Shown here piece after piece: positions 10,128 through 10,566 of a stretch of 64,000 nucleotides of DNA (position 1 is the stretch's first letter; every line of letters starts with the position of its first letter). A model generated the notes under the pieces. It was not told the DNA's origin and did not search any database. It saw only the letters and a program-made list of their open reading frames with translations. The stretch comes from an uncultured SAR86 cluster bacterium (lineage in GTDB: Bacteria; Pseudomonadota; Gammaproteobacteria; Magnimaribacterales; AG-339-G14), in assembly GCA_902523885.1 (NCBI GenBank), contig CABZAV010000002.1:68923-132922 (forward strand). Direction: 5' to 3'. The position numbers and the translations under genes are program-made.

Positions 10128-10156
10128 TTGCAAAAAAAGTCCCTTAACTCTATAAT
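10128..10156 (+). promoter_or_regulatory. Sigma-70 promoter of the riboswitch / small peptide unit
   Basis: TTGCAA at 10128-10133 and a perfect TATAAT at 10151-10156 are separated by 17 bases, the optimal spacing. Transcription would begin around 10163, immediately before the first conserved base of the glutamine aptamer, which supports the assignment. Confidence 0.8.
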
Positions 10157-10164
10157 TGCACAGT

Positions 10165-10298
10165 AATCGTTCATTCCCTGCATCATTTTAATGCAAGGAA
10201 CGGAAGTAGGAAGATAGGAAAACCTCTTTCTTTTTATAAAGAAAGGCAAGCAAGTACCGATGAGGGAACGAGACCGAATATCTAACGAAGGAACGCGT
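10165..10298 (+). ncRNA. Glutamine riboswitch (glnA / Downstream-peptide aptamer class)
   Basis: The leader holds the conserved blocks of the glutamine aptamer in order: ATCGTTCA at 10166-10173, CGGAAGTAGG at 10201-10210 and CGAAGGAACGCG at 10286-10297. P1 is CGTTC (10168-10172) with GAACG (10291-10295). P2 is 10174-10183 with 10191-10200, ten pairs with one mismatch. An 8-bp stem, CTTTCTTT (10226-10233) with AAAGAAAG (10238-10245), fills part of the P3 region, which at 75 bases is much longer than the compact forms I know. GGAACG occurs three times (10197, 10265, 10290), so P1 has competing partners. No T-run terminator stands between the aptamer and the ATG at 10360, so control of translation is likelier than termination. 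Covariance search was not possible here. Confidence 0.82.
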
Positions 10299-10309
10299 TG
10301 AGAAGGGTG

Positions 10310-10325
10310 TGCATCTTAGGATGCA
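10310..10325 (+). promoter_or_regulatory. Leader hairpin between the aptamer and the peptide start
   Basis: TGCATC at 10310-10315 pairs perfectly with GATGCA at 10320-10325 around the loop TTAG. It lies between the aptamer and the ribosome binding site TGGAGG (10348-10353) and may be part of the expression platform. No U-run follows, so it is not a terminator. Confidence 0.5.
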
Positions 10326-10359
10326 TGTACGAAATCGAAACGAAAACTGGAGGCACGAT

Positions 10360-10524
10360 ATGACTACTTACAGAGGTATCAAAGTTACTCCTGAAAATAT
10401 CGCTAGAGATAAAAAATCTCCAAAAGCTGGTATTTACAGAGGTATAAAGCACGATGCTGTTAAAAGTGAAAAGTCTAACACGTCAGGTAAAGGAATTTAC
10501 CGTGGTGTTAAACACGTAGCTTAA
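10360..10524 (+). CDS. Small basic YRG-repeat protein, DUF4278-like (possible PII-binding peptide)
   Basis: A 54-residue protein whose start is fixed by a ribosome binding site TGGAGG six bases before the ATG at 10360. A frame open from 10309 would begin inside the leader and is rejected. It has three copies of an Y-R-G-(I/V)-K motif: TYRGIK (3-8), IYRGIKH (25-31) and IYRGVKH (46-52), 22 and 21 residues apart. Lysine and arginine (13) far exceed acidic residues (4). The YRGV pattern is that of DUF4278. From memory, the cyanobacterial DUF4278 protein PirA binds PII and tunes arginine synthesis. The glutamine riboswitch upstream and glnK-amtB downstream fit such a role, but binding here is inference. 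A nucleic-acid-binding role is also possible given the charge. Confidence 0.8.
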   Translation: MTTYRGIKVTPENIARDKKSPKAGIYRGIKHDAVKSEKSNTSGKGIYRGVKHVA

Positions 10525-10538
10525 TTATTAATGGCTTG

Positions 10539-10566
10539 AAAAAGGGAGACTGTGTCTCCCTTTTTT
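10539..10566 (+). terminator. Intrinsic terminator of the small peptide gene
   Basis: Five A, GGGAGAC (10544-10550), loop TGT, GTCTCCC (10554-10560) and six T, beginning 15 bases after the stop codon. The flanking A tract makes it usable from both sides. Confidence 0.9.

Follow-up and report, generated by a model that had tools for sequence, protein, structure and literature searches.

A glutamine-I riboswitch of SAR86 bacteria and marine viruses with a predicted second three-way-junction domain nested in its P3 arm

Background

Known multi-input riboswitches are mostly serial, with their modules placed one after another. For glutamine riboswitches 157 doublets and 4 triplets have been reported, and the review of tandem riboswitches that covers them does not contain the word "nested" in its text (PMC9481103). 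The E-loop is a feature of the glutamine-I aptamer (PMC5393176, PMC6698751), and in cyanobacteria the glutamine riboswitches in front of DUF4278 genes turn expression on with glutamine (PMC6316151). No nested riboswitch came up in a literature search, though an earlier mention may exist outside the papers covered. Here we describe a leader RNA from a 64-kb stretch of DNA of an uncultured SAR86 bacterium (the whole stretch analysed, referred to as the window), in which a glutamine-I aptamer is predicted to carry a second conserved domain inside one of its arms.

Results

The outer aptamer and the gene behind it

The Rfam covariance model of glutamine-I (RF01739) matched the window at 10166-10299 with 37.7 bits (gathering score 35), and the Rfam alignment placed an insert of 76 bases in P3. 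The hallmarks of the family are present, namely P1 CGUUC/GAACG, P2 and CGGAAGUA with the GAA E-loop. In faster genome scans the window aptamer scored 27.8 bits and the matched stretch stopped at the GGAACG copy at 10265, and a viral member of the composite reached 51.1 bits. A single RF01739 match was found in the window and in the genome, and not two complete aptamers in series. The model of glutamine-II (RF01704) gave 14 bits at the window, below its cutoff of 33. The earlier note on this DNA had described 75 bases between CGGAAGTAGG (10201-10210) and CGAAGGAACGCG (10286-10297), an 8-bp hairpin CTTTCTTT/AAAGAAAG within them (10226-10233/10238-10245) and an oversized P3; all of this was confirmed. 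The P3 arm is unusually large, since the compact aptamers seen in SAR86 measure only about 50-64 nt in their whole length. Its outer aptamer places the element in the glutamine-I family, with glutamine as the predicted ligand, and its putative nested domain sets it apart as an apparently new form of that family.

The coordinates of the leader and of the gene are collected in Table 1. From the position of the sigma-70-like promoter the transcript would begin just ahead of P1. The window protein matched Pfam PF14105 weakly (E 3.5e-4, 21.3 bits, cutoff 25.3), and 16 of 16 homologues matched the same family at E values up to 0.1, the best being 6e-10. The hairpin with the T-run behind the gene, which was read from the sequence and is not listed by the pattern scan, is probably a terminator that would give a short monocistronic mRNA. 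On the other side, in convergent orientation, the window contains amtB and a PII gene, and several SAR86 genera, not all, keep this pair no more than a few kilobases away. A longer multi-YRG protein without a recognisable glutamine aptamer core before it was seen at another SAR86 locus (L177, G191 contig C37 9000-9800).

Table 1. Features of the leader and of its gene in the window
Feature	Position	Strand	Evidence
Sigma-70-like promoter (TTGCAA, 17 nt, TATAAT), candidate	10128-10156	+	10/12 consensus matches; consensus match alone
P1 5' strand CGUUC, partner 10291-10295	10168-10172	+	Invariant in 91/91
P2 hairpin, the end of which forms the 10197 GGAACG copy together with CG	10174-10200	+	Covaries
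Glutamine-I core CGGAAGUAGG: J2/3, E-loop strand AGUA (10205-10208), P3 start GG	10201-10210	+	Rfam; PMC5393176, PMC6698751
P3 inner helix 5' strand, the nested closing helix, partner 10278-10283	10212-10217	+	Covariation
Nested J1/2 GAAAACCU	10218-10225	+	GAAAACCUC in 90/91
Nested hairpin P2' (the 8-bp hairpin of the earlier note)	10226-10245	+	Covariation
Nested J2/3 GCAAGC; C10251 pairs with G10270	10246-10251	+	GGnnAGC pattern, C-G invariant
Second E-loop-like strand AGUA	10253-10256	+	AGUA in 90/91, AUUA in 1
Nested stem-loop P3' (C10257-G10265, C10258-G10264)	10257-10265	+	100 % paired; 16 and 15 two-sided changes in 91
Second E-loop GAA (within the 10265 copy) and nested J3/1 GAGACCGA (10270-10277)	10266-10278	+	GAGACCGA in 91/91
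P3 3' strands	10279-10286	+	Covariation
E-loop GAA and P1 3' strand (10290 GGAACG copy)	10287-10295	+	Rfam, 91-RNA count
P5 CGU (10296-10298)/ACG (10340-10342) around hairpin P4 (10308-10327) and a conserved internal loop	10296-10342	+	
Shine-Dalgarno GGAGG	10349-10353	+	Sequence; conserved in SAR86 leaders
54-aa YRG-repeat protein, DUF4278-like	10360-10524	+	Three YRG motifs; weak Pfam PF14105
Perfect hairpin followed by T-run, 3' of the gene	10541-10566	+	Read from sequence

A three-way-junction domain inside P3

The comparison set comprised 91 distinct composite RNAs, 39 from SAR86 and 52 from uncultured marine viruses (the latter among the matches listed). Their comparison showed that P3 encloses a predicted second three-way-junction domain, for which P3 provides the closing helix and of which the two arms are a hairpin (P2') and an E-loop-like hairpin (P3'). 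Pairs one and two of the P3' stem are formed in 91 of 91 RNAs and occur as CG, GC, AU, UA and GU. By an anchor-based count of the same RNAs the first four pairs of P2' are formed in 99-100 % and the main inner pairs of P3 in 92-95 %, and both helices covary as the P3' stem does; the covariation of the 10226-10245 stem among homologues, proposed in the earlier note as a check, was thus observed. Over 47 diverse sequences the nested domain was 92 % paired with 143 two-sided cells, a result matched by 0 of 500 shuffles, and slid controls were 26-55 % paired; its covariation score was 0.602, compared with 0.211 for shuffled and 0.026-0.192 for slid versions. The 39 distinct SAR86 leaders were aligned and scored over P1, P2, P3, the nested hairpin, the nested E-loop hairpin, P4 and P5, with 94.4 % of cells paired and two-sided changes at 18 pairs, the register of the second E-loop stem lying one base off in this count relative to the 91- and 47-sequence counts. 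The pairing and covariation scores of this structure were reached by no shuffle and its pair count by 2 of 500, shuffle statistics being inflated throughout by the relatedness of the sequences.

Among the SAR86 leaders the insert's unpaired junction strands are the most conserved parts, helices and loops the least conserved. Across genus-level representatives the identity was 0.98 for J1/2 and J3/1 and 0.87 for J2/3 with the E-loop strand, in comparison to 0.96 for the known aptamer core and 0.42 for P2. As far as the alignments tell, the nested junction strands (GAAAACCUC, GGnnAGC and GAGACCGA) are nearly invariant, with a conservation comparable to that of the aptamer core. Selection accounts in part for the invariance that the pattern letters (GAGACCGA and GAAGGAACGC for the largest scan) show among viral members, because the viral scans used exact patterns and members with changed junctions were missed; the variable helices, GAAAACCUC and AGC lie outside this effect in the largest viral scan. 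The AGUA and GAA strands are assigned to a second E-loop-like motif with putative non-canonical pairs, from their sequence and by analogy with the glutamine-I E-loop (PMC5393176, PMC6698751). Some members have only about three pairs of P3 between the two junctions (GAC/GUC, AAC/GUU), and since its length varies from 3 bp upward a rigid contact between the two domains does not seem to be required.

Single-sequence folding of the nested domain was no better than that of shuffles, and the minimum free energy structure contained the proposed stems in 3 of 4 cases. When the nested part alone (10209-10286) was compared with the Rfam families the best E value was 3.5 and all scores were far under the gathering score; the Rfam Glutamine model did not match it. 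The tetranucleotide CCUC at 10223-10226 was considered as an anti-Shine-Dalgarno sequence and is conserved in 91 of 91 RNAs, but it is a part of the invariant junction and its conservation is therefore no independent evidence for such a role.

Distribution in SAR86 and in marine viruses

DNA matches to the leader were found in 44 of the 203 genomes of the order, two of them short and partial, and the profile of the small protein matched in 48 of 203. The covariance model R1 of the insert gave 42 strong matches, at the same sites as the leader matches and directly upstream of the protein matches. The nested leader is present in 42 of the 48 SAR86 genomes with the protein, and tandem aptamers in 4. 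With models R1 and R2 the nested domain was detected in SAR86 only at the gene of the small YRG protein; weak extra matches elsewhere in the genomes, as far as examined, look like coding sequence or chance. The nested-domain models were also run on class and phylum samples of 369 and 398 genomes, and neither in these samples nor in SAR86 nor in the viral scans was the nested domain ever found outside a glutamine aptamer.

When the viral scan demanded the 3' strand exactly as in SAR86 it gave no match, and viral members appeared when the pattern was relaxed. With relaxed patterns the composite was found in dozens of IMG/VR contigs, one scan yielding at least 120 matches, some of them by chance. 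The 52 distinct viral composites (among the matches listed) parse under the same grammar as those of SAR86. The outer aptamer is present in 41 of 41 true viral matches to a pattern that does not demand it, although in two the contig ends within it. In every case with a reliably readable start, the gene behind the viral composite encodes a protein of two or three YRG motifs; automatic choice of the start gave a frame lacking YRG for four listed viral proteins, and the YRG frame is present in the raw sequence of L225. Several of the viral contigs carry T4-like myovirus genes for portal, tail sheath, prohead, DNA polymerase and major head proteins, and for one scaffolding protein the nearest named relatives are Pelagibacter phages, with less than 50 % identity. 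Searches of named phages gave no DNA match to the window leader, only short chance matches to two viral leaders and no protein match to one viral peptide. The similarity of leader and protein makes SAR86 our guess for the viral host. Taken over both sources, the comparison shows that the predicted composite fold covaries, that every find is joined to a glutamine aptamer and that the composite stands in front of small YRG/DUF4278-like proteins. The design is shared by SAR86 and viruses and so far apparently undescribed.

Tandem aptamers before the same gene

In 4 SAR86 genomes, from two genera of one family, the protein gene stands behind two compact glutamine aptamers. These leaders have a related post-aptamer region, without the nested domain and without the 10265 copy. 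Tandem aptamers before the same gene, with the nested domain absent, suggest that the nested domain and the second aptamer could be alternative solutions to one need. The earlier note had set against its own model any homologues that lack the inserted stem and the extra copies and keep full regulation; homologues of this composition exist in the 4 genomes and, if fully regulated, would speak against that model. Other genes, too, stand behind tandem compact glutamine aptamers (L126, L128, L131, L046 and further SAR86 genomes), a single SAR86 genome can have as many as six RF01739 matches, and in genus g4 a compact glutamine aptamer precedes an apparent glutamate synthase gene.

The post-aptamer region

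Positions 10296-10342 make up a third conserved RNA module, composed of P5, GAGAAGGGUGU, hairpin P4 and AUGUACGAAAUCGA. P4 covaries in the 39 SAR86 leaders. The P4/P5 module is present in 69 leaders, 31 of them viral, in which P5 occurs as CGU/ACG, CUA/UAG, CAU/AUG and CUU/AAG; about 20 viral leaders have other hairpins instead. The module may be another E-loop-like motif, and P5, which adjoins P1 and has the support of covariation, may link P1 with the ribosome site. Among the viral members there are no fewer than two other kinds of platform. Viral composites with different platforms include L193, L206, L225, L242 and others, in some of which the Shine-Dalgarno lies in a hairpin directly after P1, an arrangement that suggests a separable sensor.

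All SAR86 nested leaders in which the P3 3' strand reads AATATC have GATATG at the start codon (10357-10362), and none of those with other strands has it. SAR86 folding and a joint change in one subgroup had raised the idea that the P3 3' strand pairs with the Shine-Dalgarno-start region to form an OFF helix. Shuffled spacers gave helices about as good, matched partners over all composites reached -2.52 kcal/mol versus -2.81 kcal/mol for permuted ones (4700 of 5000 permutations as good), and the permutation test was again negative for a restricted set, so the helix was rejected as a general mechanism.

Discussion

Alternative explanations

The earlier note located GGAACG at 10197, 10265 and 10290, correctly in each case, and proposed that these copies vie for the 5' strand of P1 and thereby act as the switch. 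The motif is not enriched over the 64-kb window (11 found versus 8.2 expected), and three copies inside 100 bases are a real local cluster. As partners of P1 they fared differently: the 10290 copy is P1, whereas the 10265 copy is an internal-loop element (one stem G, the E-loop GAA, a C, then G10270 paired with C10251) and the 10197 copy is P2 followed by the conserved CGG. The 10197 copy was dismissed as a conserved element, being present in 4 of 41 SAR86 leaders and absent from 37, a coincidence of P2. The 10265 copy, whose conservation had been suggested as a check, is lost or interrupted in many homologues: GGAACG is kept there in 63 and GAACG in 78 of the 91 composites (25 and 40, respectively, of the 52 viral ones), 11 of the 91 read GAAC-A-GAG and have an extra T on the opposite strand to match the inserted A, 2 read GAAA (C to A), and the first G is another base in many viral members, P1 being unchanged in all these cases. 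A natural change of C10269 occurs in L117. Since the copy varies with P1 unchanged, it appears to follow the E-loop and not P1. P1 CGUUC/GAACG itself is identical in all 91 composites and hence has no covariation support of its own. In favour of competition, the helix between the 5' CGUUC and GAACG 10266-10270 had a mean probability of 0.51 in nearest-neighbour folding of the 39 ligand-free SAR86 leaders, and it may occur as a misfold. This helix shows no covariation, however, and the copy is interrupted or substituted in 13 of 91 composites with the same P1; together with the rarity of the 10197 copy this makes competition for P1 an unlikely switching device.

That the long P3 is a neutral insertion could be argued from the tolerance of the glutamine-I P3 for extension, as the crystallised constructs had an engineered U1A-binding loop in place of L3 (PMC5393176), but with junction conservation equal to that of the aptamer core and strong covariation over three SAR86 families and viruses this is hardly credible. 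Two further possibilities are sub-readings of the best explanation. The nested domain could be a true second aptamer for a non-glutamine ligand (a nitrogen or energy signal), which would make a two-input gate on one mRNA. It has the hallmarks of an aptamer, near-invariant junction strands with variable covarying helices, its closing helix varies in length and sequence, and related genomes have a second sensing aptamer in its place; yet no Rfam family matches, and confinement to the glutamine aptamer is unusual for an independent sensor, so we take this possibility as a tentative one. The boldest form of it, a new aptamer class that would exist only inside the glutamine-I P3 and serve SAR86 and marine T4-like viruses as an aptamer-within-aptamer two-input gate for YRG microproteins, is offered with the same reserve. 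Alternatively, the domain could be a glutamine aptamer that has diverged or persists as a ghost, or else a scaffold, and give the outer aptamer ligand-free support (or bind a second glutamine). The glutamine-I topology of a three-way junction with an E-loop in the third arm points this way, as does the linkage to the outer aptamer in every find, and ghost aptamers that support singlet glycine riboswitches are known (PMC9481103). The junction sequences differ from those of glutamine-I, though, and the nested part alone is not matched by the Rfam Glutamine model; we give this reading close to an even chance.

Proposed mechanism

Whichever of the two applies, sequence comparison, modelling and analogy make it likely that the element is a translational glutamine ON switch in which the nested domain, coupled by way of P3, either supports the aptamer or serves as a second sensor. 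As the earlier note had stated, no terminator-like site lies between the aptamer and the ATG at 10360, and control is probably exerted at translation. Forcing P1 and P3 to form raised the modelled opening of the Shine-Dalgarno from 0.56 to 0.88, with a rise in 39 of 39 leaders. The absence of a terminator, this modelled opening and the cyanobacterial precedent (PMC6316151) together favour a translational ON switch. Against it, other folds come out as more stable when the free RNA is modelled by nearest-neighbour folding, which puts the cost of the aptamer state at about 7 kcal/mol.

According to the proposed model, glutamine would bind the intact outer aptamer and stabilise P1 and P3, by which the ribosome binding site would stay open. 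The nested domain, closed by P3, would determine how stable the outer aptamer is, whether as a support module or by sensing a second signal, and would fill the role that in related genomes falls to the second tandem glutamine aptamer. The tiny protein would be made under ample glutamine and probably serves to tune nitrogen assimilation. If borne out, a conserved domain placed inside an arm of a metabolite aptamer would be a different coupling of two RNA modules, and it would suggest that streamlined ocean bacteria and viruses tune nitrogen assimilation through RNA and tiny proteins. The ligand, if any, of the GAAAACCUC/GGnnAGC/GAGACCGA junction makes it a testable orphan.

Comparison with known systems

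With glutamine-I (glnA motif, RF01739) the element shares P1, P2, the ACGGAAGUA/GAAGGAACGC core, the E-loop and the association with nitrogen genes. It differs by the second conserved three-way junction predicted inside P3, by the additional post-aptamer domain P4/P5 and by its hosts, a gammaproteobacterium (SAR86) and marine viruses. Glutamine-II (Downstream-peptide, RF01704) likewise precedes small DUF4278 proteins (PMC6316151), but it has a pseudoknot architecture and its model scores the window below the cutoff. The singlet glycine riboswitch with a ghost aptamer offers a parallel in that a non-consensus second module supports the real aptamer (PMC9481103); the glycine ghost, however, stands in series beside the aptamer, whereas here the module lies inside an arm. 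Tandem glutamine riboswitches also have two RNA modules in one leader before one gene, but in the leader described here the second module is not an RF01739 aptamer and the two modules are nested rather than serial.
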